The notes beneath the pieces are model-generated. The model was given only the letters and a program-made list of their open reading frames with translations, had not been told where the DNA came from and searched no databases. Source: Candidatus Magnetocorallium paracelense (GTDB lineage: Bacteria; Nitrospirota; Thermodesulfovibrionia; Thermodesulfovibrionales; Magnetobacteriaceae). From it: a DNA stretch of 64,000 bases. Location: NCBI GenBank assembly GCA_029001845.1, contig JAREWP010000076.1, forward strand, positions 1 to 64,000. Direction: 5' to 3'. A program made the position numbers and the translations under genes. Shown in pieces: positions 1,619 to 17,184 of this stretch; the stretch's first letter is position 1, and the number at the start of each line of letters is the position of its first letter.

Positions 1619-1661
1619 AAAAGGCATGCATGAGGATTACCCCTTCGGCATGCCTTTTTTT
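1619..1661 (+). terminator. terminator-like hairpin A
   Basis: Perfect 11-bp stem (1619-1629 with 1648-1658), an 18-nt loop containing a weak AGG/CCT inner stem, then a T-run. It follows the methylase pair and precedes the helicase start by about 105 nt. It shares the GGCATG/CATGCC stem core with the hairpins at 4035 and 5964. Confidence 0.75.
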
Positions 1662-1765
1662 GTACCCGTATTTGTGAACCATAGAGGAGAGAGAGAAAAA
1701 CTTATAAAACTCTGTGTTTTCATTTTTTTAACTCTGTGCTCTCTTGGTTAAAAAGGAGGTATCAA

Positions 1766-3955
1766 ATGGGAATTACCCTTAGAGAATTTATAGAGAAAAA
1801 CGGAAAGGCTCTTGGAGATAAGATCGAAAAAGTACTCACACCGGTGTATAATCCCCTTAAAACTGACTCGGTTGTGGAAACATACACTCATAAGATCAAA
1901 ACTCTCCAAAGAAAACCCTATCCCGTTCAGGAAGAGATAATTAAGGGCCTTGCAAAGGCGATTTATCATGAAAGAAGAGAGAGGCTATTTTTGTGCGGCG
2001 AGATGGGAACAGGCAAGACTTCTTTAGGACTCAGTGTTATTGCCATGTCGCCCAAACCCCTGAGGAGTCTGATCGTGTGCCCTGGACATCTGGTGCAAAA
2101 GTGGATGAGAGAAGCTACACTTACACTGCCCGACGTAAAAGTGTACGATTTGGCCGTTAAGAATGTGATTACCATACTTGACGCACTGAGGTCTGAACCA
2201 AAAGAGCCCGCGACACACGAAATCTGGGTGGTATCCAAAGAGCGAATCAAACTGAGCTACTCCTGGCGAGCGGCTTTCTGTGAGACCGTTAAAAGTAAGC
2301 TGCCCATATGTCCTGACTGCGGAGAAAAGCCCACAGGGAAAGATGGTGAAGTGCTTACAAAAAATACAATCACAAAGAAGCGCTCACACTGCCACTGTGG
2401 AAGCTCACTATGGCAGTCCTCACAGAAACTGAGACGTTACTCCCCTGCCGAATATATCAAAAAGTATCTCAGGAACAGATTCCAAATGGTGATACTTGAT
2501 GAAATTCATGAGTATAAAGCGGGAGACTCCCTTCAGGGTCACGCAATGGGACAGCTTGCCGCAAGCAGTCAGTACTTTATGGGACTGACCGGAACATTAA
2601 ATGGTGGCTTTGCTGACAATTTATTTTATCTCCTCTATCGCCTGGAACCTCAACGTCTCAAAGAGTTTGGCTACACAGGAGTGCTTCAGTGGCAGCGAAC
2701 CTATGGAACTATTGAAGAGATCCAGAATTTGGAAGACGAAGATCACAAATACGGAAGAGTAAAGCGTAAAAATGTGATTGTCAAAAAGAGACCGGGCGTA
2801 TCACCGGAAGTTATCGGCAAGTACTTTTTAGACAAGAGCTGCTTTATCCGCTTATCAGACGTAATAGACGGCCTGCCCCCTTATGACGAAACGGTCGTGA
2901 CCATCAGTATGATCGGTACTCAGAAAAGGGAGTACAAAAAACTGAATGAAAAATTCAGAGAGGCAGTCAGAAAATACAGAATGAAGGCAAGCTCGTCAAT
3001 GCTGCAATCTCTACTGAGTTATCCTGACTCCTGTGTTGTTTTTCCTGAAGAGACAGAGATCAAAGCAAAGAGTGAAGAGGACAAAACCTACAGAGTACTG
3101 GCTCGAATAGAGGCTCCCAAAATTGAGACCAACACACTGCTTCCTAAGGAAAAGGAGTTGCTTGCGATTGTAAAGAGTGAGAAAAGCGAAAACCGAAAGG
3201 TCTTACTCTACCTCACATTTACAGGCACAAGAGATATGAGGAGTCGGATTAAAAACGTGCTGGAAGAGAGTGGTATTCAGGCAGGAATACTCCCTGAAAC
3301 GATAGAACCTAAAAAGAGAGAAAAGTGGATCAAAGAGAATGCCGATCATTTTGAGGTATTGATTACCAATCCGGAACTGGTGAAAGTGGGCCTTGATTTA
3401 ATTCAGTTTCCCACAATAGTGTTCTTCCAGGCAGGATACAATATCTTCACCTTAAGACAGGCGGCAAGAAGAAGCTGGCGTCTGGGACAAAAAGATGCTG
3501 TAAAAGTTATCTTTCTTACCTATAAAGATACCATGCAGGAACTTGCGATCTCTTTAATAGCCAAAAAGCTGGAAACATCACTCCTGGTGGAAGGAGACCT
3601 GCCGGAAGGACTGGCAAAGTATCATATCGAGAGCGGCTCTCTCTTTGAAGAGATGACAAAGGCTCTGGTAGAAGAACGAAAATATACGGGCGCTGAAACC
3701 GCATGGGCTAATTTCAGAAAGAAGGAGGTTGAGACCTCACTTGGAATTGGGAAAAAAGAGACAATCTTTACGGAAAAAAGCAACAAATCAGTGTCCTGTA
3801 CTATGCCCATAACCAAAACCACACTTACTGAAAACACAATGGTAAGCGTTACAGTGGTAGAGGGCAGGAAAAAGAGAGCTGCCTCTCTCTCCGTACGATA
3901 CGGTGATCTGGATAGGATATTTACAAACAAAACCGTACAGTTTGCTCTGTTTTAA
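1766..3955 (+). CDS. SNF2-type DEAD/DEAH helicase with zinc-ribbon insert
   Basis: Superfamily 2 helicase or translocase of about 729 residues. Walker A GEMGTGKTS lies near residue 80 and the DEIH box near residue 245. The motif VI region (QAARRSWRLGQKDAVKV) is SNF2-like. Between motifs I and II is a four-cysteine cluster (CPDC then CHC), a likely zinc ribbon for DNA contact. I place the start at 1766 because AAGGAGG lies just upstream; a longer reading from 1736 has no ribosome site. Probably acts in replication or recombination of the element with the SbcCD-like pair downstream. It could instead belong to a defence module, but no partner typical of one is visible. Confidence 0.8.
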   Translation: MGITLREFIEKNGKALGDKIEKVLTPVYNPLKTDSVVETYTHKIKTLQRKPYPVQEEIIKGLAKAIYHERRERLFLCGEMGTGKTSLGLSVIAMSPKPLRSLIVCPGHLVQKWMREATLTLPDVKVYDLAVKNVITILDALRSEPKEPATHEIWVVSKERIKLSYSWRAAFCETVKSKLPICPDCGEKPTGKDGEVLTKNTITKKRSHCHCGSSLWQSSQKLRRYSPAEYIKKYLRNRFQMVILDEIHEYKAGDSLQGHAMGQLAASSQYFMGLTGTLNGGFADNLFYLLYRLEPQRLKEFGYTGVLQWQRTYGTIEEIQNLEDEDHKYGRVKRKNVIVKKRPGVSPEVIGKYFLDKSCFIRLSDVIDGLPPYDETVVTISMIGTQKREYKKLNEKFREAVRKYRMKASSSMLQSLLSYPDSCVVFPEETEIKAKSEEDKTYRVLARIEAPKIETNTLLPKEKELLAIVKSEKSENRKVLLYLTFTGTRDMRSRIKNVLEESGIQAGILPETIEPKKREKWIKENADHFEVLITNPELVKVGLDLIQFPTIVFFQAGYNIFTLRQAARRSWRLGQKDAVKVIFLTYKDTMQELAISLIAKKLETSLLVEGDLPEGLAKYHIESGSLFEEMTKALVEERKYTGAETAWANFRKKEVETSLGIGKKETIFTEKSNKSVSCTMPITKTTLTENTMVSVTVVEGRKKRAASLSVRYGDLDRIFTNKTVQFALF

Positions 3956-4034
3956 AGCGCTATGACTTCAATAGGGCAAACAAAACAGGATGCGGTAATA
4001 CATCACTAAATGTAAATTTCAGTAGGTAACGAAT

Positions 4035-4077
4035 AAAGGGCATGTATCAGAGGGTTCCCCTCGGCATGCCCTTTTTT
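4035..4077 (+). terminator. terminator-like leader hairpin B
   Basis: Outer 10-bp stem (4035-4044 with 4065-4074) enclosing a 5-bp inner hairpin GAGGG/CCCTC (4050-4062) and followed by a T-run. It ends 31 nt before the start codon of the next gene, leaving little room for a promoter after it. Confidence 0.75.
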
Positions 4078-4108
4078 ATTTTATGAGATTAACAATTAGG
4101 AGTTTTTT

Positions 4109-4375
4109 ATGATGACTACCAGCATTGAAGAGGAATTGACCCAAAAGGCAATAGCAAATGGCTATGATCCAAAGCAGCTTATCTATTCTGTCACAATAAA
4201 TGACATTATAAAAGTTCTGGCTGACTGCATGAAAGAAGACGATTCATATAAGGTTGATGAACCCACAATGGGAAAGATATTAGCAAAGGTAACTACCAGT
4301 ATTGAAACAGCAGTACCCGCAGGTGATGTCGTTAAGAAAGCCTACCTGAATGAAGCAGATGACATGTTTCTATGA
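4109..4375 (+). CDS. small acidic hypothetical protein
   Basis: An 88-residue acidic protein with an AGGAG ribosome site 6 nt before the ATG. No recognised domain, signal peptide or membrane segment. Predicted mostly helical, with a repeated TTSIE motif near the start and in the middle (MMTTSIEEELT and KVTTSIETAV). Lies alone between a leader hairpin and a 337-nt repeat-rich gap. Confidence 0.55.
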   Translation: MMTTSIEEELTQKAIANGYDPKQLIYSVTINDIIKVLADCMKEDDSYKVDEPTMGKILAKVTTSIETAVPAGDVVKKAYLNEADDMFL

Positions 4376-4712
4376 AAACCTGTCATATCTATAAATTTAA
4401 AAAAAGCAGTCAGGTATAAGAGCTGTTAGCTATTAGCTTAAAGATTCCTGGAATTTGTTACTCACATTTGAGTGAATTGTTCTTTCGCTTATATTCAATG
4501 CGAAGCTTTGAATTTTCTTCGCTAACACCTAATACCTAACCAGGCGTAGCGGTCACCAAACACGATTCAAGGCATAAGGCAACAGGCATAAGGCATAAGT
4601 AAGAAAAATATTAGTGTTTTTTTGCGCACAATTTTATTTATAAGCGACTAACTGCTAACTGCTGTTTTTTAGGATAAATACAGCCAACCACACAGATTAG
4701 GAGGTATATCAA
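4376..4712. other. gene-free, repeat-rich gap before the SbcD-like gene
   Basis: Holds short degenerate direct repeats: GCTGTTAGCTATTAGCTT near 4421, tandem GGCATAAGGCA units near 4571-4600, and CTAACTGCTAACTGCTG near 4647. A 33-nt stretch at 4619-4651 recurs on the chromosomal side at 51824-51856 with three differences. No coding potential seen. An AGGAGG ribosome site near its right end serves the next gene. Confidence 0.6.
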
Positions 4713-5903
4713 ATGAAGATATTACACTTTGCAGATATACATTTCAGGCACGATCTGCTTGAGGAGATATGTAAGTGTACCGATTATATGATTGATAAAG
4801 CATCTGAACATAAAATTGACCTGGTAATCACAGCAGGTGATCTTTTTGATGAACGGCAGTCCTACGATTCACCGGTATTTTTAAAAGCTGTTGAATTTAT
4901 TCTAAAGCTTTGTAAGATAGCACCGCTGTTTATACTTAAAGGAACCAATTCACATGACGGCAACAGTTTGAAATTCCTGGAGAGTTTGTCACCGGAAAGG
5001 ATTTGTGTATCGGAAAGCATAGAGCAGGTGGTATTTGGAAACGGAAGGTTTGAAAAAAGTTCGGCCAACACAGATTCCGCAGATCTCATCATATCCTCTC
5101 TACCCTCTGTCAGCAAAGCGCAAATCGCATTAAACTTAAACGATCTGAATGAATCAAACCAAACCACTGTTGATCTGATTCGAGAAGTACTGAGAAGCTG
5201 GGCTGAAGTTAATCAAAATGTTGAAGTTCCGACCATTTTAGCAGGACACATCTCCCTTACAGGAGCAAGCTTATCAACAGGCCAACAGCTTATGGGAAGA
5301 GAGATTGAATTAGGAGCAGGAGACTTAAGAATGGCAGGCGCCGATCTGGTATGTCTGGGTCACATTCATAAAGCTCAAAGCTGGGGAGAAATATATTACT
5401 CAGGATCAATAACCAGGCTGAACTTTGGCGAAGAGGAAGAGAAGGGTTTTTGGATACATGAGTTTCACGGTAAGAAAGTCAACTCGCAATTCATAAACAC
5501 CCCTTCAAGAAGTTTAAAGACAATCGACATTGGAATACTGGCAGATAGTGAAAACATAACCGCTTTGTCTGATAAAGCGACAGACGTACAAGATGGTGCG
5601 GTTGTTAAAATCAGATATGAAGTGAGTGAAGAAAACGTACACAGTATAGACGAAAGTGTTTTAAAAAGCAAGCTGCTTAAATCCGGCGCTTCAGAGGTAA
5701 AGATTGAAAAAAGGGTTATACCGAAACAGAGAGTAAGGGCCGAAGGAATCACATTGCTTTCACCTGCTGAAAAGCTCAAACAATGGGGTGAGATAACAAA
5801 CACCCTGATCACAGACTCAATAACCAGGAAGCTCGATCTGCTGGTGGATGAGACAGATGTTATTCTGACAAATCAATACTCTGATTTATACAACATAAAT
5901 TAA
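4713..5903 (+). CDS. SbcD/Mre11-like DNA repair nuclease subunit
   Basis: Calcineurin-like metallophosphoesterase of 396 residues. Metal-binding motifs appear in order: DIH (8-10), GDLFDE (from 42), GTNSHD (77-82) and GHIHK. The third is the NSHD variant rather than plain GNHD; I recall this type from phage and plasmid SbcD-like proteins. An AGGAGG site precedes the ATG. It should form a nuclease with the SbcC-like ATPase encoded next, processing DNA ends or hairpins during element replication or recombination. Confidence 0.85.
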   Translation: MKILHFADIHFRHDLLEEICKCTDYMIDKASEHKIDLVITAGDLFDERQSYDSPVFLKAVEFILKLCKIAPLFILKGTNSHDGNSLKFLESLSPERICVSESIEQVVFGNGRFEKSSANTDSADLIISSLPSVSKAQIALNLNDLNESNQTTVDLIREVLRSWAEVNQNVEVPTILAGHISLTGASLSTGQQLMGREIELGAGDLRMAGADLVCLGHIHKAQSWGEIYYSGSITRLNFGEEEEKGFWIHEFHGKKVNSQFINTPSRSLKTIDIGILADSENITALSDKATDVQDGAVVKIRYEVSEENVHSIDESVLKSKLLKSGASEVKIEKRVIPKQRVRAEGITLLSPAEKLKQWGEITNTLITDSITRKLDLLVDETDVILTNQYSDLYNIN

Positions 5904-5963
5904 GCCACGGAATTGTATGGAAAAGATCCCGTAATTTCAAACATTAAGTGGCGATATTAACGT

Positions 5964-6006
5964 AAAAAGGCATACGACAGAGGTAATCTCTGCGTATGCC
6001 TTTTTT
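5964..6006 (+). terminator. terminator-like leader hairpin C between sbcD-like and sbcC-like genes
   Basis: Perfect 13-bp outer stem (5964-5976 with 5993-6005) with a 5-bp inner hairpin CAGAG/CTCTG (5978-5992) and a T-run. It ends about 22 nt before the sbcC-like ATG, and the ribosome site GGAGGAGAG directly follows. Any transcript reaching the gene from upstream must pass it. Confidence 0.8.
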
Positions 6007-6028
6007 GTTTCTATGGAGGAGAGAGATA

Positions 6029-8233
6029 ATGAGACCGTTATCAATAAAATTACAGGGTTTTAAAGGGATCAGTTCCGGCATAGGGAAAGAGGAGATAGAA
6101 ATCAACCTTTCTGATCTCCATGGCCTGGTAGCTGTAACAGGGCCTAACGGAGCAGGGAAAACCACTATTCTGGATAATATGCATCCCTTTAGAATCATGC
6201 CATACAGAGCCGGAGGCTATTCATCAAAAGCCTTTAGCTACTATAGTGAGTGTTATGAAAATAGTGTAAAGGAGTTTATCTTTCAAATCGGGCATACGAT
6301 TTATAAAAGCCTGATTATGATTGATGGCAGGAGAAAAAAACAGGAGGCTTACTTATATGAAAAAAACGAAGAAAACTGGCTGCCGCTCTGTGACGGTAAG
6401 GTGGATAATTACGACAAAACAGTCTGCTCATTAGTCGGCGCGTCTCAACTGTTTTTTACAACCGTGTTCAGATGTCAGGACGCTGTAAAGCTCAGTGATT
6501 ATACCAAAGGAGATATAAAGGATATCTTTATCGAGCTTTTGGGGATTGATTCATTTAAGCTGAAAGGACAAAGGGCTAAGGAAATCAGAGCTTTTTTACT
6601 GCAACAGCTTGAGATGATACAAAGGCAGGTAGAGAATCTGAAAGCAATCATTGTCGAATCTGAAAAAGCCAAAACAGAAGCCGGTGAAACAGAGTTAAAG
6701 CTCTCAGCGATAAAGTCACAAACTGAGGAGATAGAAAAAGCGCTGGATCGTAAAAGTACGGCTTTACAGACTCTTAAGTCGGAACTGGCCGTTTATGAAG
6801 CGGCAGTTAAGGAGAAAAAATCACTTCAACTGAAAGCATCTGAGATTCAAATGAGATGTGTAAGGCTTAAAGAGGTGATTGTCAAAGCAAAGGAGATTCG
6901 AACTGCCGTGGAGAGTGAAAAGAGTTATCTTACTGAATGTGAAAAATTGAAGTTGAGTTACACGGAAACAGACAAAGCGGTTAATACACTGCAAAGAGAA
7001 TTAAATACCCTCAGGGAAGTTGAGACTCAATTGGCGACTAAAGAGAGGATGCTTTCCGAAATCAGAGTCAAAAGAGAAAGCCAGCAGAAAGCTCTTAAAA
7101 ATGATCTCAGAAAAGCAAAGCATACCTCAGAACTGCTCCATAAGGTTCCCTGTGGAGATGAGTTACACGGTAAATGTGAACTTCTTAAAAACGCAGTAAC
7201 TGCCGGAGAGTCAATTCCAAAGCTGATCAAAGAGGTGCATCTGTCTGGCAAAGTGACGGAAGCTGAAAAGGGTCTTGCCAAAGAGATAACGGAGTTGATG
7301 AAAGGACGATCCAACACTGACATCAGACAACAGTTGGAAAACACCTTAAAGCATAAACAGGAGCTGTCAAATCTGATAGCAGAGTGTGAAAAGGTGTTAC
7401 TCAGGCAGAGAGAGCTGAGTAAAAGACTCCCTGAACTGGAACTGGCTGAAAAAACCCTTCCGGAATGCGAAAAGGAGCTTGCTGAAATCAACGGCAGGCT
7501 GGCTAAAATTAAAACCAATGGAGACCTTAACCAGAGGATTCAGTCTGCCTCAAAGGAGATTGCCACTTTGAAAAGCAGGCAAAAAAGCATTGTTCAGGAA
7601 GAATCAGAATTGAGAAAACATCTTGGCGCTAAAGAGGCTTTGATGAAGCAGGGAGTAACAGCATCTGCTGAGATGGTTACTGTTACTGAAAAAGTTGAAA
7701 CTCTCAAAAGAGAGATTTCCGAATGGTCCATACTGGAAAAAGCTCTTGGAAACGACGGAATCACAGCTCTTGAGATTGATGACGCCGGGCCTGCTATCAG
7801 CGTCATTACCAATGAGCTGCTCAACAGTTGTTTTGGATCACGTTTTTCCGTGCGCATAGATACGCAGGCAGTAAAGGCCAACAACAAGGGACTTAAGGAG
7901 ACCTTTGATATTGTGGTACTTGACAGTGAAAGAGATGAATCCAAATCACTGAAAAAAATGTCCGGCGGAGAGAAGACCTGGATTGAAGATGCGATTACAA
8001 AGGCGATCAGCCTTTTTAACGCAAGTAAAAGCGGTATCAGCTATGAAGCGCTCTTTACCGATGAAAAAGACGGGGCTCTGGACGCAAATCGAAAGAAAGA
8101 GTTCATCGCCATGAAGAAAAAGGTGCTTGATATCGGTAAGTACGATGTGGAGTTCTTTATATCCCAATCACCGGAACTCCATGAGCTGGCTGATCATAAA
8201 ATAGAGATTGGCCAAACAGTAACGATCTCATAG
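6029..8233 (+). CDS. SbcC/Rad50-like SMC-type ATPase
   Basis: ABC/SMC-type ATPase subunit of an SbcCD-like nuclease, about 734 residues. The N-terminal Walker A is GPNGAGKTT. A long Lys/Glu-rich coiled coil fills residues about 180-560. The C-terminal lobe holds the signature MSGGEK and the Walker B/D-loop region FTDEKDGALD. At the coiled-coil apex, in place of the usual CxxC hook, is CGDELHGKC (near residue 375), a C-x7-C pattern like the phage gp46 type. I chose 6029 because GGAGGAGAGAG lies directly upstream; the frame is open back to 5996, through the hairpin. Confidence 0.85.
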   Translation: MRPLSIKLQGFKGISSGIGKEEIEINLSDLHGLVAVTGPNGAGKTTILDNMHPFRIMPYRAGGYSSKAFSYYSECYENSVKEFIFQIGHTIYKSLIMIDGRRKKQEAYLYEKNEENWLPLCDGKVDNYDKTVCSLVGASQLFFTTVFRCQDAVKLSDYTKGDIKDIFIELLGIDSFKLKGQRAKEIRAFLLQQLEMIQRQVENLKAIIVESEKAKTEAGETELKLSAIKSQTEEIEKALDRKSTALQTLKSELAVYEAAVKEKKSLQLKASEIQMRCVRLKEVIVKAKEIRTAVESEKSYLTECEKLKLSYTETDKAVNTLQRELNTLREVETQLATKERMLSEIRVKRESQQKALKNDLRKAKHTSELLHKVPCGDELHGKCELLKNAVTAGESIPKLIKEVHLSGKVTEAEKGLAKEITELMKGRSNTDIRQQLENTLKHKQELSNLIAECEKVLLRQRELSKRLPELELAEKTLPECEKELAEINGRLAKIKTNGDLNQRIQSASKEIATLKSRQKSIVQEESELRKHLGAKEALMKQGVTASAEMVTVTEKVETLKREISEWSILEKALGNDGITALEIDDAGPAISVITNELLNSCFGSRFSVRIDTQAVKANNKGLKETFDIVVLDSERDESKSLKKMSGGEKTWIEDAITKAISLFNASKSGISYEALFTDEKDGALDANRKKEFIAMKKKVLDIGKYDVEFFISQSPELHELADHKIEIGQTVTIS

Positions 8234-8256
8234 CTATTAAAATCATACACAATCAG

Positions 8257-8302
8257 AAATCCCCCTGCCAGGAGTAAAATCCAGGACAGGGGGATTTTTT
8301 TT
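8257..8302 (+). terminator. intrinsic terminator after the sbcC-like gene
   Basis: An 11-bp stem (8257-8267 with 8287-8297) rich in G/C, followed by a run of eight T. It lies 24 nt after the stop codon. Confidence 0.85.
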
Positions 8303-8339
8303 AAGCTTTATTTAACATCTTTCATAAAGCCCAAAAAGT

Positions 8340-8575
8340 ACTTTACACTTTGTTTTATCTCGCAAAGGCGCAAAGAGCTCAAAGTTTTATGGTATGGTCA
8401 TGAATATTCTCTCACAGATATATTTTTCTTTGCGTTCTTAGCGTCTTTGCGGGAAACATTTTTTAATTTATTTGCTCTGCTATCTTCTTATTTGTAAACC
8501 GGGAAATGAAGGATGCACTTTATGCCCTTCTTTTTCTTTGTGCCTTTGTGTCTTTGTGTGAGAAACAATATAAGA
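8340..8575. repeat. inverted pairs of TTTGCG-type intergenic repeats
   Basis: Holds CGCAAAGGCGCAAAGAGC (from about 8359) and, in opposite orientation, TTTGCG-TTCTTAGCG-TCTTTGCG (from 8431), then CTTTGTGCCTTTGTGTCTT near 8537. Similar tracts occur near 39090, 57500 and 63365. These resemble the simple CTTTGCG/CTCTGTG repeats seen in many bacterial genomes. No coding potential. Confidence 0.5.
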
Positions 8576-8657
8576 AGATGAGCTGTCAGGTAAGCCGTAA
8601 CCCCTCCTACAGTAATACATAAGCATTAACTAATTTATGTAGCTTTTGCGAAAAGAT

Positions 8658-8707
8658 AACCCTTATCGAATTGCTCTTTGAGAGCTGTTTGTTTAAGGGT
8701 TTTTTTG
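8658..8707 (+). terminator. nested hairpin with T-run upstream of a small gene
   Basis: Outer stem AACCCTTA/TAAGGGTT (8658-8665 with 8694-8701) enclosing an inner hairpin GCTCT-TTG-AGAGC (8673-8685), then a T-run. The architecture matches leader hairpins B and C. Confidence 0.65.
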
Positions 8708-8724
8708 TTTATACCCCGGTCCTG

Positions 8725-8785
8725 CTCCTGTGGGGTTCATGGTCGACCAACATGTCTTAGACATGTAACCCCAACCTTACAGGAG
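8725..8785 (+). ncRNA. candidate multi-branched RNA structure in a leader
   Basis: Four nested or adjacent complementary segments are visible: CTCCTGT/ACAGGAG (8725-8731 with 8779-8785), GGGGTT/AACCCC (8732-8737 with 8767-8772), a small hairpin around GGTCGACC (8741-8748), and ACATGTC-TTA-GACATGT (8750-8766). Together they could form a three-way junction 37 nt upstream of the next start codon. It may be a leader regulator, but no known riboswitch class was recognised. Confidence 0.35.
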
Positions 8786-8821
8786 AGGCTGGGAGTCTGT
8801 TTTGATAAGAGGGTTTATAAA

Positions 8822-9037
8822 ATGGCAACTACTGTAAGAATGAGAAATTTCTCCGATCTTTTAAAAAGTATGCAACAAGGGAATTCCAGAGGTTCTGTAG
8901 ACCTGTCACCTGAAGAGGCTCTTCGAATTTTTGAAAAGGATGAGGTTTATAAGGTGGTTGAAGGTTTTAATGTCAATATTGGCTGGCTCCATGATCCTCA
9001 GGGTAACCTTGAAAAGGTGAGTGTTTACGTAAGGTAA
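8822..9037 (+). CDS. small hypothetical protein
   Basis: A 71-residue protein beginning MATTVRMRNFSDLL. The start at 8822 follows GATAAGAGGG; the frame is open back to 8678, but that extension runs through the leader structure and looks noncoding. Contains LSPEEALRIFEKDEVYKVV and a C-terminal beta-like segment ending VSVYVR. No family recognised. It lies between two leader hairpins. Confidence 0.55.
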   Translation: MATTVRMRNFSDLLKSMQQGNSRGSVDLSPEEALRIFEKDEVYKVVEGFNVNIGWLHDPQGNLEKVSVYVR

Positions 9038-9064
9038 AGAAAATCAAGAGGTTCATAAGCTTAG

Positions 9065-9099
9065 TGCAGGGAAAATATGCTTTTCCCTGCATGTTTTTT
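9065..9099 (+). terminator. terminator-like leader hairpin D
   Basis: An 11-bp stem (9065-9075 with 9081-9091), a 5-nt loop and a six-T run. The next ribosome site (AGGGGGG, about 9104-9110) and ATG (9118) follow at once. Confidence 0.8.
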
Positions 9100-9117
9100 A
9101 ACCAGGGGGGACTGTAT

Positions 9118-9372
9118 ATGAGCAAATCATCGGGCAACAATTGTATTTCACCGATTGTATGTCATCTCTATCAGGAAGGATTTCATAATGAGATTTCATT
9201 AGTAGGAAATAAATCGGCTCTTCAATCTTTACTTACTGCATTAACGGACGCTGTTGAAAAGGGCAGGGGAGAGTTATCCATAACTGTTGAGAAGGATATG
9301 TGCTGCAGGATAGAGATTTTACTTAATAAAACCGGAATAAACGACATTCCGGAAGTGTATCTATCGATATAA
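9118..9372 (+). CDS. small hypothetical protein
   Basis: An 84-residue protein with a strong AGGGGGG ribosome site. Contains four Cys (NNCISPIVCH and DMCCRIEILL) and an ALTDAVEKGRGELSITVE segment. No family recognised. It ends 15 nt before the gp3-like gene, so it is probably in the same operon. Confidence 0.6.
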   Translation: MSKSSGNNCISPIVCHLYQEGFHNEISLVGNKSALQSLLTALTDAVEKGRGELSITVEKDMCCRIEILLNKTGINDIPEVYLSI

Positions 9373-9387
9373 AAGGAGGTTTTTAAT

Positions 9388-10950
9388 ATGTTGAACAATA
9401 TAGAGAATACAACAAATAACACTTCAGGTGTTGTAAGGGAGTTAGAGTTTGGCAATGAGGAAATGATACAGACCATTCTTGGCCCTGCTTATAAACTACC
9501 CAAAGCCGGGGTTATACGTCCCGGTATTAAAGTACTGAAAAAAGGGTGCAGTGACAGTGACAGCTCTGTGTACAACAGAATGACAGATGAGGGTTCTTCC
9601 TGGGATGAGATAGATAAAAGAATCGGGAAGGACAGAAAGGGCAAAAGCAAACTCATCCCTAAAAACGCTGACTACTTTACAGTGCGCCCTTCTGATTGTA
9701 AAAATCCGGATGATGTGAGGCTGCTTTATGATCTCTACGCTGACTCTGACGGTAAGATCAGAACTATTCCCGTCTGGTTTGCCTCGAATGAGTGGTATAA
9801 CATTATCCCCCACAACCTGAGATGCTTTGGCGCTCGTTCAGGGTTGAGGTTTTATAGTTGTTTCAGAGAGATAAAAACCCCCACAGGTAAGGTGATTGGT
9901 AGTGAAAGAATCTGTAAGTTTCCTTTGTCATTAGAGGAAAGAAAGAGGAGTTATGGTAAAAGAAAATGGGGAGAAAGGCCATGTGATCCTGAGAACTGTC
10001 CTGAGTATCAGCAGGGGGAGTGTAATTTTGGCGGTGTGATTAACTGTTATATCCCCGGTATTAAAGGAATCGGAGTGTGGTGCATACCCACAACCTCCTG
10101 GCACTCTATGGTGAACATAAAGAGTACTTTGGAGACTGTTTCAGGAATTACAGGAGGTAAAATATCCGGTCTTGTCAACAACAGAGCCTTTTTTCAGTTG
10201 AGAAAGGTCAGGGAAATGATTCACAAAACAAATGCCGAAACAGGGACTGTACAAAAAGTAGAGCAGTTTCTGATCCATCTGGATGTAGATATAGATATGA
10301 CGGAGTTAGCTGCTTATTATGAAAAGAGTCAGATATTTTATCGGGCCATGAATGCGGCTCAGTTACTGACCCCACAGGCGCCTCCGCTTGTAAATAGTGA
10401 TGATTCCCAGGCTCCTGATAATTTGGATACTTTTCAAAGTGAATCAGTAGAGGCTGATGACCATGATATTGAACTGTCACCTTCAGTCATCCAATCTACA
10501 GGTGATAACAGGAGTGATGGAGTAATTCAATCTGCAACCACTTCCAACAAACAACTCAGTGAAAATGCTGAATTACTTTTTAAGGTTTTAAACCTTCAGT
10601 GTAATGGGGAGAGAGAATTAATGAAACAGGAGCTAAACAAGTACACAGGAATCGACTCCTTTTATAAGGTTACTGAAGAACAGGCGGAAAAGGTTGTAAA
10701 TCTGATCCGTAAGAAAAATGGTGACCATTCGGAGCTTGACTCTACAAATAACTGTAGTAGCGCCCCTTTTAAACTTACAGGTGAAGTAAAAAAGCTCTTT
10801 GACACACTTACTTCCATTTGTGATGGTGATGAAGAGGTGATAAGTGAGCTTAAAAAGCTGACCGGTGTGGATTCATTTATGAAGGTAACGGAAAAGATGG
10901 CTAAGGAAGCGATCTCCAAACTCACTGACGCTGTGTTAGAAGAGTTTTAG
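9388..10950 (+). CDS. gp3-like / 'hydrolase or metal-binding' element protein
   Basis: A 520-residue protein. Its middle resembles the phage gp3-like recombination directionality factors and the 'hydrolase or metal-binding protein' of integrative elements: a Cys cluster (CDPENCPEYQQGEC), then a PGIKGIG segment and TTSWHSMVNI. The C-terminus carries two about 50-residue copies of one module, ending IDSFYKVTEEQAEKVV and VDSFMKVTEKMAKEAI, separated by a low-complexity Ser/Asp-rich linker. An AAGGAGG site precedes the ATG. Probably involved in element DNA metabolism. The family assignment is from memory of motif layout, so it is moderate. Confidence 0.55.
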   Translation: MLNNIENTTNNTSGVVRELEFGNEEMIQTILGPAYKLPKAGVIRPGIKVLKKGCSDSDSSVYNRMTDEGSSWDEIDKRIGKDRKGKSKLIPKNADYFTVRPSDCKNPDDVRLLYDLYADSDGKIRTIPVWFASNEWYNIIPHNLRCFGARSGLRFYSCFREIKTPTGKVIGSERICKFPLSLEERKRSYGKRKWGERPCDPENCPEYQQGECNFGGVINCYIPGIKGIGVWCIPTTSWHSMVNIKSTLETVSGITGGKISGLVNNRAFFQLRKVREMIHKTNAETGTVQKVEQFLIHLDVDIDMTELAAYYEKSQIFYRAMNAAQLLTPQAPPLVNSDDSQAPDNLDTFQSESVEADDHDIELSPSVIQSTGDNRSDGVIQSATTSNKQLSENAELLFKVLNLQCNGERELMKQELNKYTGIDSFYKVTEEQAEKVVNLIRKKNGDHSELDSTNNCSSAPFKLTGEVKKLFDTLTSICDGDEEVISELKKLTGVDSFMKVTEKMAKEAISKLTDAVLEEF

Positions 10951-11104
10951 AGCGAATTTAATGTTTTTATAGTTGCTTAATGTACAGCCACAGAGGTTAC
11001 AGAGGGAATATGGGAAAAAACACTGAGACAAAAAGAAGTTGCTCTGTGTGCTCATTTTTTTCAGCTCTGCGCTCTCTGTGGTTTTCCTGTTAGAAGGAGG
11101 ATAT

Positions 11105-12079
11105 ATGCTGGCTAAAGAGTTGATTGAAAAAGCAAAAACCGTAAATCTTCCCGACTTTATAGAAACTGTAACCGGTCAGTCAGCCTTAAGAGGCAGCAGG
11201 CCGGAAAAGAGGCGTTACTATTCTCCTTTTAGAGATGAAAAGGAGGGCTCTCTTTTTGTCTCTTTTAAAAATGGTATCTGGGTATGGTTTGATTTCGGTG
11301 TTTCTGAACAAAACGGGGGTGATGCCATCAAATTTGTCATGCAGTTAAAGAGGTGCTCTTTTAAGGAGGCAGTTGAGTCTTTAATCAGTTTTAATGGCTG
11401 TGATGTAGCTTTATCCGAAACCGGTGACTATCATCGTTCTGATGCTAAAGGTGAAAAGCTGGACAGTATTCTTTATGCAAAAAGTATTTATAACAAGCTG
11501 CCTGACAATAATACCTCTCTGTTGAACAAATATTTTACTGAGAGAGGTTTGCCCTTTTATCCTGAAATGGGCTGTAAGATACTTAACCATTTTAAGGACA
11601 AAACAAGATACCTCGCAGTTCCGCTTCCAAACACTAAAAACCTGAGAGGTCTGGAGCTTAGGGAGATTGTCAATCTCTCACAGGAACTGACTGGTTATTG
11701 TGAGAGAAAGAGAAAGTGCTATGGTATTAAAACATTGTGGGTGTTAAAGAGAAACCTGTCTCAGATGATTATTACCGAGTCTGTCACTGACTCTCTTGCA
11801 GGTGATGTTTTACTCGGTTTGAATGAGGCTACTCTTGTTGCTTTAAATGGTGTGAGCCAGGTTAATCAGTTGCCTTTACTGTTGAAATCTGTACGGCCTG
11901 ATAAAGTTTTTTTGGCTTTAGACAATGACTGCTCAGGCAGGGAAGCTCAGAATAGGGTTGTTATGATTCTTAATGAGTTTGGTGTGAATGTCGAGGTGAT
12001 TGAAATAAAAGAGAAAGACCTTTTCAGGGAACTCTGTTTGCAAAAGCTGATGCACAAAGATGCTGTTAATCTGAGTTAA
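11105..12079 (+). CDS. Toprim-domain DNA primase-like protein
   Basis: A 324-residue DnaG-like primase. The N-terminal part matches the fold context of the CHC2 primase domain (YYSPFRDEKEGSLFVS, WVWFDFG, GGDAIKFVMQL) but lacks the usual zinc cysteines. The C-terminal part is a Toprim domain with the Glu in ITESVTDSLAG and the acidic pair in LALDNDCSG. The start at 11105 has AGAAGGAGG upstream; the longer frame from 11039 crosses repeat-like sequence. There is no helicase domain, so it is a short accessory primase for the element. Confidence 0.8.
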   Translation: MLAKELIEKAKTVNLPDFIETVTGQSALRGSRPEKRRYYSPFRDEKEGSLFVSFKNGIWVWFDFGVSEQNGGDAIKFVMQLKRCSFKEAVESLISFNGCDVALSETGDYHRSDAKGEKLDSILYAKSIYNKLPDNNTSLLNKYFTERGLPFYPEMGCKILNHFKDKTRYLAVPLPNTKNLRGLELREIVNLSQELTGYCERKRKCYGIKTLWVLKRNLSQMIITESVTDSLAGDVLLGLNEATLVALNGVSQVNQLPLLLKSVRPDKVFLALDNDCSGREAQNRVVMILNEFGVNVEVIEIKEKDLFRELCLQKLMHKDAVNLS

Positions 12080-12624
12080 GAAAAGTCTTTGATGTCTGTT
12101 TGTTTATTAAAAAACCTGGTAGCGGTTTCTGTTACCAGGTTTTTTTATTTCTGCACAAGGTTAAAAGTAATACTTCTATAAAAGGGTAGCTTTCTCTTTT
12201 ACATGAGTTTCTGCGATCCTGTTTATCTTGGCCAATTAAATCAAACAAGTAAACAACTATAGGTGTGCCTGCTCTATTCATAAAGTCAGCCTTGTTCAAC
12301 TTAAATGGCCAGAGAATTATGAATCGCCGAAAGTCATGTTTTATTTCCTTCTGTGCTGTGTTGCAGTAATTTTTAGACAGTTGAGATGTAGTTATTCAGC
12401 AGGGAATTCCCGGAAAAATATAAATAAATTGTCAAAAAGTACTGCTTTTGTAAACTTTTTTAAATTAGATGTTTTGATTGAATGCCTTATGTTTCCATAT
12501 TAACTTTTACATATTTATTAAATCAAGAGGTAAGTTTTTTGTTTATTTTCTACAGATCTGCTTATCTGAACTCTCTCTTTATCAATATAAATGGTTACCT
12601 GCTATAAGAAGGTTGGAGTTTTTT
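12080..12624. other. gap after the primase gene
   Basis: Contains a terminator at 12109-12146 and then about 480 nt of AT-rich sequence with no convincing gene. The frame upstream of 12625 is open back to a TTG at 12478, but its residues are hydrophobic/aromatic and no ribosome site is seen. It probably holds the promoter of the two regulators downstream. Confidence 0.5.
12109..12146 (+). terminator. intrinsic terminator after the primase gene
   Basis: Stem ACCTGGTA/TACCAGGT flanked by A-run and T-run (12109-12121 with 12133-12146). Confidence 0.85.
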
Positions 12625-13092
12625 GTGGAAGATAGCGAACTGTATATTTCCGTCAGAGAGGAGATAAATGTTGAAGCTTTTGAGTTGTTTCAAACCATGG
12701 AATTTCAGAAAATGGTTAGAAAAACTATTTTAAAAGTGCTTCCCTTTAACAGGGTTTATACTTTTGAGGACTATCATCAGGAGTCTTTTATTGCCTGTCT
12801 CTCTGCTGTTGAAAAGTTTAACAGAATTCATAAGAGCAATAATGGAAATGGTGCTGGTTCTAACAAAATGAGTTTACGCACTTACGCTATGTGGCATGTT
12901 TTTAAAGCTATTTATAAACTTGCAGACACTGGGGAGGTTGTCTGGGATGTAATGGACGAAAACGGTGAGTATGTTGAAACGATCTCCAATAAGGAGTTTA
13001 GAAGACGTAAAAAATCTCTTGAGTTAAAAAATTACACTTTCAATGCTATTTCTCTAATACAAGAGTTATATGAGGAAAACAGCGAACTTTAG
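12625..13092 (+). CDS. sigma-70 region-2-like protein, lacking region 4
   Basis: A 155-residue protein read from a GTG preceded by GGAG. The centre resembles sigma factor region 2: FEDYHQESFIACLSAVEKFN followed by LRTYAMWHVFKAIYKL, comparable to the region 2.1-2.4 pattern (DxxQEGF...A...F, TYA.W.I). No region 4 HTH follows. The next gene overlaps its end region and contributes an HTH, so the two may act together. It could instead be a sigma-derived anti-sigma or appropriator. Reading from the upstream TTG at 12478 would add 49 doubtful residues. Confidence 0.55.
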   Translation: MEDSELYISVREEINVEAFELFQTMEFQKMVRKTILKVLPFNRVYTFEDYHQESFIACLSAVEKFNRIHKSNNGNGAGSNKMSLRTYAMWHVFKAIYKLADTGEVVWDVMDENGEYVETISNKEFRRRKKSLELKNYTFNAISLIQELYEENSEL

Positions 13093-13098
13093 GTAGTG

Positions 13099-13716
13099 AT
13101 GGACAAATCAGATAAAGAAAAACTTCTGGATACTTTGATTGAAAAAGGTCTTTGCTTTAGTGATCTGGAGAAGCATGGATTGGAATTTGAGGATTGCTGT
13201 CAATATCTGTTTATGAATGACAGGATCAGCCTGGCTGAAATAGCCAATTTTTTCAAGATAAACAAGTCTACTGCTTACAGGCGATATTATAAAAAGGCAA
13301 CAAAGAATCAAAAGATCAACAATCTTCTTTACAATGATGATAATAGTAGAAAAAGTCAAAAAATATTGTTGAACCCTTTAACAATATTTGAAAAACTTAA
13401 TGAACCTTTAGAGCAATATAAAATTTTCATTCAATGGAGAAGATTGGATAGTGACAGGAAAACAAGAAATAATATTACTAAATCTATGATTTCGATAAAT
13501 CATGCTGCAAAACTCCTAAATATAACAACAAGACAGATGTACAAAATCATAGATAGAGAAAATATAGACAACATTAAAGGTTATTTATCCTTAATCTCCT
13601 TTGAGAAATACTTGAAGAAAAGACGGGATCAAATAAAAGTTGAAGAAGAGCGTATCAGTTCACTTATTTGGGCAGTTAAGGAAAAAAGAAAAAATGCAAT
13701 GAAATCAGCGAACTGA
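13099..13716 (+). CDS. double-HTH regulator
   Basis: A 205-residue, Lys/Arg-rich protein. A first HTH (LAEIANFFKINKSTAYRRYY, near residues 50-70) resembles sigma region 4 or a transposase-type HTH. A second (SINHAAKLLNITTRQMYKII) is excisionase/MerR-like. It starts 6 nt after the stop of the sigma-like gene; a GTG three bases earlier is the alternative start. The coupling suggests a two-protein transcription regulator of the element. Confidence 0.55.
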   Translation: MDKSDKEKLLDTLIEKGLCFSDLEKHGLEFEDCCQYLFMNDRISLAEIANFFKINKSTAYRRYYKKATKNQKINNLLYNDDNSRKSQKILLNPLTIFEKLNEPLEQYKIFIQWRRLDSDRKTRNNITKSMISINHAAKLLNITTRQMYKIIDRENIDNIKGYLSLISFEKYLKKRRDQIKVEEERISSLIWAVKEKRKNAMKSAN

Positions 13717-13873
13717 GAATCATTCAAAATTTTGCATTATGCATAAATATCTATGAATCGGAGTTCATCTCTTTTTACTACGTATAAATTCAGGAATTGT
13801 TCCTAAGCCATACTTATCAAGGGTTTATGATGTGTATAAAAATTAATTTCACCTTAAAACATTAAAAATCAAC

Positions 13874-13906
13874 AAAAGGTATGGGGACTATCACCCATAC
13901 CTTTTT
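13874..13906 (+). terminator. terminator-like leader hairpin E
   Basis: A 12-bp perfect stem (13874-13885 with 13894-13905), an 8-nt loop and a T-run. It ends 22 nt before the antirepressor-like ATG; GGGAGG lies between. Confidence 0.8.
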
Positions 13907-13928
13907 ATACTTAATCGGGAGGTTATAT

Positions 13929-15110
13929 ATGGAGAAGGGTATCATTCCATTTCGAAATACTGAGCTTCTTACCGCAAAAAACGAAGAGTCAAAAGAAATA
14001 TATGTTGCACTTAAACCTATAATTGAAGGAATTGGCCTGAACTGGAAAGATCAAATAGTAAAAATTAAAAATGACAAGAGGTTTAAACATATGCTAATTC
14101 ACTTTTCAACCAACAGAGGCTCTCAGGAGATGATTTGTATCCCATACAGCCATCTCCCGGCATTTCTTTATTCAATCAATCCAAATAAAATCAATAATGA
14201 TTCAAAAGAGATCCTTTTAACTTTTCAGGAAGAGACTTTTGGTGTTATTAATGACTATTGGCTAAAAGGTTATGCGATAAAAAGAGACCTTAATTATAGT
14301 TTCCCCTTACAGGAAGAGTTAAAACAGATAACACCAGAGCTTCAGGAATCGGTCAAAAGAATTTTTGACGATGTAAAAGATATACAAGTGGTTCGCAAAA
14401 TCGCCTCCTTATCCCCTGAAAAACAAAAGGTCATGATCAAAGAAATCGAATTTATTATCGATTCTGAAAATGAAGATGAAAAACTGACAGAGGAGAAAAA
14501 AACTCTTGAACAGGAGGTGAAAAGGCTTCAGAACATTGAAAAGGAATACAAAAAACTTGAACGAGAGCGCAATCTGCTTTTAACGGGCATGAAGAAAAAG
14601 GTTCAGGAGAAACTTGAGGAACGAGAAACTGAAATCAAAGTGCAGTATAAAGAGACATCCAAAAACATTACAAAAGTCATTGAAGAAGAACGAGCCAAAA
14701 TCCAGGCTGAGTATAAAGATGAGATTGAAACGCTGAGTAAGGAACTGAGAAACATGTCTCTGGCCAGAAAAAAAGTAGCTGACCATACCGAACAATATAA
14801 AGATGAAATAAAAGCGCTAAAAGAGAAGATTAAGGAAAGCAACAATACGGCTGTGAAATTCAAAAATGACAAAGACTACTGGATGAAGCTGCATGATGAA
14901 GCCACCAACAGAGAAAATCTGCCCGTACTCATCCATCTGATACGAGATGAAATGCGTATATTTAATAAACAGCTTCTTAAAGCCGGTGGAACAACTGATT
15001 CAAATAAACAAACAATAACGGAAGCTCTGGATGAAATACAGGAGATTCTTGATGAGACTAAAGACACAATCACCCAACTGAATCAGCTTCCGGTAATAAA
15101 TGATAATTAA
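13929..15110 (+). CDS. phage antirepressor-like (P22_AR_N) coiled-coil protein
   Basis: A 393-residue protein. The N-terminal about 110 residues match the P22 antirepressor N-terminal domain (VALKPIIEGIGLNWKDQ, GSQEMICIPYSHLPAFLYSI, ILLTFQEETFGVINDYWLKG). A long Lys/Glu coiled coil follows (about residues 170-320), then a short helical tail. The family usually relieves prophage repression or binds DNA-regulating partners. The start at 13929 has GGGAGG upstream; an in-frame ATG at 13881 lies within the hairpin and is less likely. Confidence 0.75.
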   Translation: MEKGIIPFRNTELLTAKNEESKEIYVALKPIIEGIGLNWKDQIVKIKNDKRFKHMLIHFSTNRGSQEMICIPYSHLPAFLYSINPNKINNDSKEILLTFQEETFGVINDYWLKGYAIKRDLNYSFPLQEELKQITPELQESVKRIFDDVKDIQVVRKIASLSPEKQKVMIKEIEFIIDSENEDEKLTEEKKTLEQEVKRLQNIEKEYKKLERERNLLLTGMKKKVQEKLEERETEIKVQYKETSKNITKVIEEERAKIQAEYKDEIETLSKELRNMSLARKKVADHTEQYKDEIKALKEKIKESNNTAVKFKNDKDYWMKLHDEATNRENLPVLIHLIRDEMRIFNKQLLKAGGTTDSNKQTITEALDEIQEILDETKDTITQLNQLPVINDN

Positions 15111-15668: not shown

Positions 15669-16988
15669 ATGTCTGCCAGACCAACTTTACAGCCAAATGT
15701 TCTTAATTTTCCTACAACAAAGAACAGAAAAAAAGTACGAAAAGGGGGTGTTAACAGAAACAAAGAAGGGTCAGTGAGAAAAATAAATGGAAGAGTTTAT
15801 ATTGACTTTAGATATTTAGGGGAAAGAGTGAGGGAAGCTTCAGGATTAGTCTGGTCGGAAGAAAATGTCAGGATAGTCAGGAAGCAGTTAGACAAAATCG
15901 TGGCATCAATACAAATCGGTACGTTCAATTTTTCAGAAGTTTTCCCTGACAGTCCAAGAAAGGAATACTTCACGGCTAAAGAGTGTGCTATTAATGGGAT
16001 AGAAGTGCCCGTTAAAGAACCAGGTGATGTTACCTGCGGGCAGTATATTCAGGAATGGTACGAGAAGCTTAGAGGTATTGGCAGAGTTTCAGAGCGGACA
16101 ATGCTGGGTTATAAAAGTCATATTAACCTTTATCTAATGGATTTTTTTGGTCAAATGACTTTTGTAGAACTTAGTCTGAATGTTCTTGAAAAGTTTACCT
16201 TGTGGTCAAGAGGTAAGAAGATTAAAGGCAGAGAGGTTGGCAACCAAACAATAAACAAGTGTCTGACATTGTTTAAAAGGATTTACGATGATGCTGTAAT
16301 TAATTATAGGTGGAGAGATCTTCAAACGCCTTTCTTTGGCTATAAGAAGCTGCCAGAGAGTGATCCTTATGAAAAGATTTTTCCATTTACTGTTGATGAG
16401 CAGGATCAGTTAAATAATCAACTCTCTGAGCATTGGAAGCCATATTTCAAATTTGCGTTTTGTTCCGGTTTAAGGCAGGGTGAGCAAATTGGGTTGTATC
16501 CGAAAGATATTGACTGGGAGTCTGAGTTATTGCATGTTAGAAGAGCGATAACGAAAAACGAAGAGGGGAAGATAGTAGAAGGACCGACAAAGAACAAATA
16601 CAGCAGAAGATCTATCAAGCTTATACCTACAATGAAGGAAGCTTTATTGGAGCAAAAAATGATCTATGAGAAGTACAAAGGAAAGTATTTTTTCTGTAAT
16701 ACAGCCGGGGCAAGGATCGACTCAAGTACTCTTAGACGAAATGCCTGGTTACCGGCACTAAAAAAAGCAGGGCTTAAAATACGAGAGGTGAAACAAACTC
16801 GTCATACTTTTGCCACAATTGCACTGAGTTGTGGTGAAAACCCATTATGGGTTGCTAAAGTGATGGGACACCGGGACACTGATATGGTAAGTAGAGTTTA
16901 TGCTAAGTATATTGAGAATTTCAAAGGCTCAGAGGATGGTTTAAGCTTGAACAAGTTGTATCAGGGAGATAGAAGTAAAGACAGGTAA
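15669..16988 (+). CDS. tyrosine recombinase (integrase)
   Basis: A 439-residue phage-type integrase. The N-terminal arm-binding region (NKEGSVRKINGRVYIDFRYL) is DUF3596-like; the core-binding SAM-like region spans about 115-210. In the catalytic domain the first Arg is in SGLRQGEQIGL (near 268), the second in QTRHTFATIA, and GHRDTDMVSRVYAKY carries the nucleophilic Tyr. Upstream AAGGAGG-rich sequence gives good initiation. It lies about 110 nt from the 3' end of tRNA-Leu, which marks this as the integrase end of the element. Confidence 0.92.
   Translation: MSARPTLQPNVLNFPTTKNRKKVRKGGVNRNKEGSVRKINGRVYIDFRYLGERVREASGLVWSEENVRIVRKQLDKIVASIQIGTFNFSEVFPDSPRKEYFTAKECAINGIEVPVKEPGDVTCGQYIQEWYEKLRGIGRVSERTMLGYKSHINLYLMDFFGQMTFVELSLNVLEKFTLWSRGKKIKGREVGNQTINKCLTLFKRIYDDAVINYRWRDLQTPFFGYKKLPESDPYEKIFPFTVDEQDQLNNQLSEHWKPYFKFAFCSGLRQGEQIGLYPKDIDWESELLHVRRAITKNEEGKIVEGPTKNKYSRRSIKLIPTMKEALLEQKMIYEKYKGKYFFCNTAGARIDSSTLRRNAWLPALKKAGLKIREVKQTRHTFATIALSCGENPLWVAKVMGHRDTDMVSRVYAKYIENFKGSEDGLSLNKLYQGDRSKDR

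Positions 16989-17097: not shown

Positions 17098-17184
<87 letters not shown>

Follow-up and report, generated by a model that had tools for sequence, protein, structure and literature searches.

The stretch of DNA analysed here, which we call the window, spans positions 1-64000 on a contig of 100,875 bases belonging to a genome of 6.0 Mb, and its first 17 kb are occupied by an integrated element truncated by the contig end. This element encodes a DUF6094 methyltransferase, an SNF2-type helicase, an SbcD-like metallophosphoesterase, an SbcC-like and a Gp3-like protein, a Toprim/CHC2 primase, a P22_AR_N protein, and a tyrosine integrase. For SbcD and SbcC, the naming is based on domain and sequence reading. 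The integrase gene lies at the right end of the element and adjoins a tRNA-Leu gene. No clear second att site was found for this element, nor was its missing left part, the search for a TraD homolog in the window's genome being negative. Neither the SbcC-like nor the Gp3-like protein had a match in the viral contigs searched, and no Gp3-like relative was present in the phage records searched. The main genes and hairpins of the element are the following, with gaps to the start codon counted from the last paired base:

1619 to 1658, + strand: predicted leader terminator, hairpin with T-run, 107 nt to the ATG at 1766
1766 to 3955, + strand: SNF2-type helicase gene, anchor to the relatives (63-65% identity)
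4035 to 4074, + strand: predicted leader terminator, hairpin with T-run, 34 nt to the ATG at 4109 (88-aa ORF)
5964 to 6005, + strand: predicted leader terminator hairpin, 23 nt to the ATG at 6029
6029 to 8233, + strand: SbcC-like gene
8255 to 8299, + strand: predicted trailer terminator of the SbcC-like gene, 21 nt past the stop
8658 to 8700, + strand: predicted leader terminator, hairpin with T-run, 121 nt to the ATG at 8822
9063 to 9093, + strand: hairpin, ambiguous between leader and trailer, with a stop 25 nt before and the ATG at 9118 24 nt after
12111 to 12143, + strand: predicted trailer terminator of the primase gene, 31 nt past the stop
13874 to 13905, + strand: predicted leader terminator hairpin, 23 nt to the ATG at 13929 (P22_AR_N protein)
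15669 to 16988, + strand: tyrosine integrase gene
17098 to 17184, - strand: tRNA-Leu gene

Six of these hairpins (1619, 4035, 5964, 8658, 9063, and 13874), each followed by a T-run, have the look of intrinsic terminators upon folding, with energies of -18.5 to -29 kcal/mol for the folded stretches. Their existence had been proposed in an initial annotation of this DNA, and all six are recovered both by folding and by a stricter terminator scan, the one at 8658 solely through its inner stem. The outer stems, formerly given as 10-13 bp, measure 11-13 bp in five hairpins, with 8658 as the exception. Nesting around an inner GAGG-type stem, attributed to several hairpins, is present in 1619, 4035, and 5964, and these are also the three sharing the GGCATG/GGCATA core, as had been noted; 13874 has GGTATGG instead, and it is called on both strands by the scan. 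Two terminators absent from the initial annotation, 8255 and 12111, lie far from any start codon and are ordinary gene-end terminators. With a G+C-containing stem and an immediate T-run, all six hairpins, plus these two, appear to be intrinsic terminators.

The hairpins at 4035, 5964, 9063, and 13874 are separated from the ATG by a ribosome site only. The spacing previously reported for them, 18-31 nt, had been measured past part of the T-run and becomes 23-34 nt from the last paired base, so that a usual promoter would not fit between hairpin and start; the greater distance reported for 1619 and 8658 is borne out. A generic terminator scan covering both strands of the first 20 kb returned 28 sites, against a shuffle mean of 15.6, and stricter rules applied to the coding strand gave eight terminators in the element's 14 kb vs two weak ones in the next 47 kb. 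When the closeness of the window's hairpins to start codons is compared with random placement of each hairpin inside its own intergenic space, p is about 0.05; hairpin position in the window considered alone is therefore weak evidence, and the window by itself proves little.

The strong evidence lies in the related elements. Alignment of their leaders, a check already suggested with the initial annotation, supported a conserved leader. Public genomes labelled Nitrospira or Nitrospiraceae contain two close relatives of the window's helicase, on DYJL01000001.1 (63%) and QZJG01000070.1 (65%), the latter being our L023 and also G401, with which G453 is the same by identical coordinates. The best relative is in genome G196, where the SNF2 gene is 63% identical to that of the window and contig C57 encodes homologs of the methyltransferase, ORF180, the helicase, SbcD, SbcC, the Gp3-like protein, and the primase. 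The same contig encodes TraD-like, RadC-like, ThiF, prokaryotic-ubiquitin, and ArdC-like proteins, as well as ParM-like and DnaN-like proteins and a PRTRC-type cassette, named from sequence reading.

In G196 and L023, a common sequence lies directly 5' of the leader hairpins, and its end is only a few bases away from the hairpin. This cis-element of about 40-45 nt follows the pattern GTAATAC-N17..24-AGTAG-N..-CGAA (also written GTAATAC-N17..24-AGTA-G..C-GAA). A looser pattern run over 230 genomes of the class, combined with profile searches, gave a total of 25 copies in eight genomes of the class (the window's, G196, G401/G453, G399, G458, G027, G038, and G057). The exact pattern matches four of 395 phylum genomes, with seven matches in G196, one in the window, two in G399, and one, a probable chance match, in G366; a reversed-pattern control gave one match across all listed genomes. 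Homologs of the G196 conjugation region are present in G038, G057, and G399, and the motif thus tracks one mobile-element family. The comparison with Rfam gave no match, and a relaxed threshold chance-level matches only; nor was a description of the cis-element found in the literature searched. A profile built without the window detects two copies in it, directly preceding the hairpins at 4035 and 8658:

3994 to 4033, + strand: cis-element copy 1 (GTAATAC..AGTAGGTAACGAA), exact pattern, window-free profile E=2.4e-4
8611 to 8652, + strand: cis-element copy 2 (GTAATAC..TGTA-GC-TTTT-GC-GAA), window-free profile E=0.002, aligned over 8611-8645

The next-best window match of this profile has E=0.7, and it finds no copy at the remaining four of the six window hairpins (1619, 5964, 9063, and 13874).

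A terminator follows the cis-element in 12 of the 25 copies under a strict scan and in 16 under a looser one, and it can be seen by eye after a further few (G196 225191, G458 2464, and G038 5180); none follows the G038 copy at 7823, and there is no clear one at the G027 and G057 copies. Among 72 matches to the exact pattern in viral contigs, which we read as chance, none is followed by a terminator. G196 has ten counted copies, all on the coding strand and nearly all at the start of transcription units, including one unit that contains the relative of the SbcC-like gene, and nine motif-linked hairpins there end 25-79 nt ahead of a start codon, closer than random placement would give (p about 3e-4). 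The order is constant, namely cis-element, hairpin, U-run, ribosome site, and start. The hairpin sequences vary between copies, and the genes behind them share no common pathway beyond the element's own upkeep. In the same genome, the terminators at unit ends (117750, 124296, 134561, and 228364) lie 7-18 nt past the stop and lack the motif. Terminators thus fall into two classes, leaders and trailers, both of which the window has. Taking window and G196 together, leader hairpins stand 41-458 nt past the previous feature, 9063 excepted, and 23-79 nt ahead of most starts, whereas trailers lie 7-31 nt after stops, without the motif.

We give a modest preference to the reading in which these leader terminators would be read through under a common, element-specific antitermination signal. 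Each leader hairpin would act as an intrinsic terminator, halting transcription just ahead of the gene unless the RNA polymerase has been made resistant; the signal for resistance would be the conserved 40-45-nt cis-element abutting the 5' side of the terminator, so that many transcription units could be opened jointly by a single element-specific factor. The sequence itself shows the terminators and the cis-element in a constant order, the confinement of this cis-element to one family of mobile elements, and a KOW protein of the NusG type linked to the element; from these we infer conditional read-through, the cis-element as loading site, the KOW protein as the factor, and a coordination that spans the element. 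Within the window, antitermination would apply most directly to 4035 and 8658; at 1619, 5964, and 13874 it is only their position that marks the hairpins as leader terminators, and 9063 could be either leader or trailer. One cis copy per terminator seems to fit local, per-unit control at least as well as processive read-through. The initial annotation had proposed that every gene is read through its hairpin in a single element-wide scheme. This idea gains genuine support from the relatives, where leader hairpins are joined to a conserved sequence at many unit starts and three motif carriers encode the KOW protein, but it is supported only in part: in the window, the cis-element accompanies just two of the six hairpins, a further two terminators are plain gene-end ones, and no antitermination factor was found in the window's genome.

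The candidate for such a factor is a KOW-domain protein of 140 aa encoded in G196 at 92408-92830 (KOW E=3.4e-5, above the Pfam cut-off), whose gene stands behind the motif at 90981 and immediately before the TraD-like gene. A two-sequence profile of this protein compared with the PDB matched the NusG C-terminal domain, and that domain only (E=1.2e-7); the N-terminal half gave no significant match. At E<=1e-8 the protein occurs in three of 230 class genomes (G196, G038, and G057), all of them motif carriers, two of which had supplied the search profile. Since linkage inside one element would give the same pattern, this co-occurrence is a lead for the factor rather than proof. Across those 230 genomes, the protein was found neither in the window's genome nor in most motif carriers, and an NGN-domain search for a NusG paralog on the element contigs returned none.

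As for the level at which the cis-element is recognized, we slightly favour RNA, in the manner of LoaP, rather than promoter DNA, in the manner of Q and AlpA. Several observations speak for RNA. The length of the cap that separates AGTAG from CGAA ranges from 6 to 10 nt, with invariant G and C ends, and, where it has at least 8 nt, a second Watson-Crick pair is present in six of eight copies and in four kinds (p 0.004-0.009, in a test chosen after seeing some copies). Two copies have GNRA loops, GUAA in the window at 3995 and GAAA in G399. AGUA and GAA flanking a loop closed by G-C are the signature of the bulged-G (sarcin-ricin) motif. Against RNA, the core is not more stable than its shuffles (mean z +0.4), and RNAalifold predicted no consensus fold for the alignment. 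An antiterminator stem between the motif and the 5' arm of the terminator, drawn by hand, works in some G196 copies and fails in G399, and a boxA-like reading of ACTTTAAG concerns a stretch that is not conserved in G399; both were dropped. A wider proposal, which we regard as possible but rather unlikely, is that of an undescribed antitermination regulon in a family of Nitrospirota mobile elements, in which a sarcin-ricin-like RNA fused to a terminator would head most units and the element's KOW protein would be the master switch.

Many copies lie 0-137 nt behind the previous gene feature, with 225191 about 7 nt behind another U-run, and, with several of them so tightly placed, the motif itself may hold a promoter. 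This packing, the spacing of about 26 nt between two of the blocks, and a further block near a possible start site would suit an explanation in which the conserved sequence serves as a promoter for a sigma factor or activator specific to the element. The hairpin, at the very beginning of the transcript, would then shield the mRNA or adjust its translation, with no regulated termination. A weak Sigma70_r2 match (E=0.014, below the cut-off) in the window ORF at 12622-13089 points the same way. However, the blocks are unlike the usual -35 and -10, the distance to CGAA varies with the 6 to 10 nt cap, and the U-runs kept beyond the stem would be unneeded by a protective hairpin; the sigma-like ORF, moreover, has no match among G196 proteins by tblastn, and its model is of low confidence (pLDDT 57), with no significant fold match. 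Altogether, we hold this explanation to be unlikely.

It is also improbable, in our judgement, that the hairpins simply terminate the upstream genes or insulate against stray host transcription, standing near the next gene only on account of short spacers, with the downstream genes expressed through weak constitutive read-through. The only mildly unusual placement in the window, the hairpin at 9063, which suits either role, and the four window hairpins that lack the motif would all agree with this possibility, and insulating terminators are known in Tn916 (PMC11658703). It accounts poorly, however, for the different positions of trailers and leaders with respect to the preceding stop and the following start, and for the leader hairpins tied to a conserved sequence in the relatives. 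Even though a terminator and a ribosome site behind a conserved stretch are what a riboswitch typically looks like, and many occurrences in one element could also suggest a functionless mobile repeat, either alternative seems very improbable: a small-molecule sensor of that kind is at odds with the lack of Rfam matches, the little canonical structure, and the varied genes downstream, and a copied repeat with hairpins that differ among copies.

If regulated antitermination at the leaders is true, most units of a mobile element would be under the control of terminators sharing one cis-signal, in place of promoter repressors or of one site for processive loading, and specialised regulators of the NusG type would extend to Nitrospirota mobile elements. 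The candidate protein accompanying the cis-element makes the idea directly testable.

Among known systems, LoaP of Bacillus velezensis is a NusG paralog that performs leader antitermination in two long biosynthesis operons, where it binds a UNCG-type hairpin (PMC12691694). The likeness consists of a specific leader element followed by an intrinsic terminator before the first gene, and of a NusG-type protein, which is here a candidate only and in which the NusG C-terminal domain is matched but the N-terminal half is without a significant match. Contrary to LoaP targets, the cis-element shows no UNCG hairpin in the motif alignment and stands before many short mobile-element units. AlpA acts on terminators directly upstream of alpB and PA0807 and loads at the DNA site GGGACGN5GGTA between -35 and -10 (PMC7969949). 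AlpA and phage Q resemble the present case in having intrinsic terminators directly upstream of their target genes and in serving several units with one factor, as is proposed here; however, the cis-element has neither the ABE consensus nor an evident sigma-70 -35/-10, even though its tight packing upstream leaves a promoter possible. The window's methyltransferase and helicase belong to the DUF6094/SNF2-helicase gene pair of large plasmids and ICEs such as pKLC102 and pMU3262, in 20-kb stretches of which the cis-element profile gave no match at E<=1. The control of a conjugative element by terminators and antitermination is shared with canT of Tn916 (PMC11658703) and conAn of pLS20 (PMC8955417), where a single loading at the start of a long operon lets many terminators be read through. 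Contrary to canT, conAn, put, and nut, there appears to be one cis copy per leader terminator here, and the unit-end terminators seem to be kept. Because it has neither a UNCG hairpin nor a single loading site, this would be regulated leader termination of a new form, apart from the LoaP, canT, and conAn systems.

Ahead of the primase gene, both the contig with the best related element (G196:C57, 225146-225276) and another motif-carrying genome (G458:C204, 2418-2540) present a plain terminator followed, after 7-13 nt, by the conserved cis-element motif and a second terminator, an order relevant to the question of a promoter inside the motif. In the window, half of this motif, AAAAGTAATACTTC, is found at 12163-12193 (profile E=0.7), close 3' of the trailer terminator of the primase gene at 12111, with neither a hairpin nor a gene start; it is possibly a remnant.

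Dyads of the CCACAGA..CTCTGTGG and GCAAAGGCGCAAAG type, which look like dispersed repeats, occupy three intergenic stretches of the window:
1559-1760, intergenic dyad
8340-8570, intergenic dyad
10980-11095, intergenic dyad
The first of these encloses the 1619 leader hairpin, where the dyad may have taken the place of a cis-element. Between the 8658 leader hairpin and the ATG at 8822, positions 8713-8800 contain nested inverted repeats (CTCCTGTGGGGTT..AACCCCAACCTTACAGGAG) and fold strongly (-42 kcal/mol for a 101-nt segment).

The element also encodes a possible sigma-like pair, proposed from sequence matches, whose predicted structure is poor:
12478-13092, ORF with a weak Sigma70_r2 match (E=0.014, below cut-off)
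13096-13716, adjoining ORF with weak helix-turn-helix matches

On another contig of the window's genome (G000:C10, L047), a second NusG-type protein is encoded around 1474-1995 (61 bits for PF02357), and appears RfaH-like by eye. In G196:C57, one motif-hairpin leader precedes genes with prokaryotic-ubiquitin and ThiF domains (120170-124288, stretch L033), which we read as a PRTRC-type cassette.
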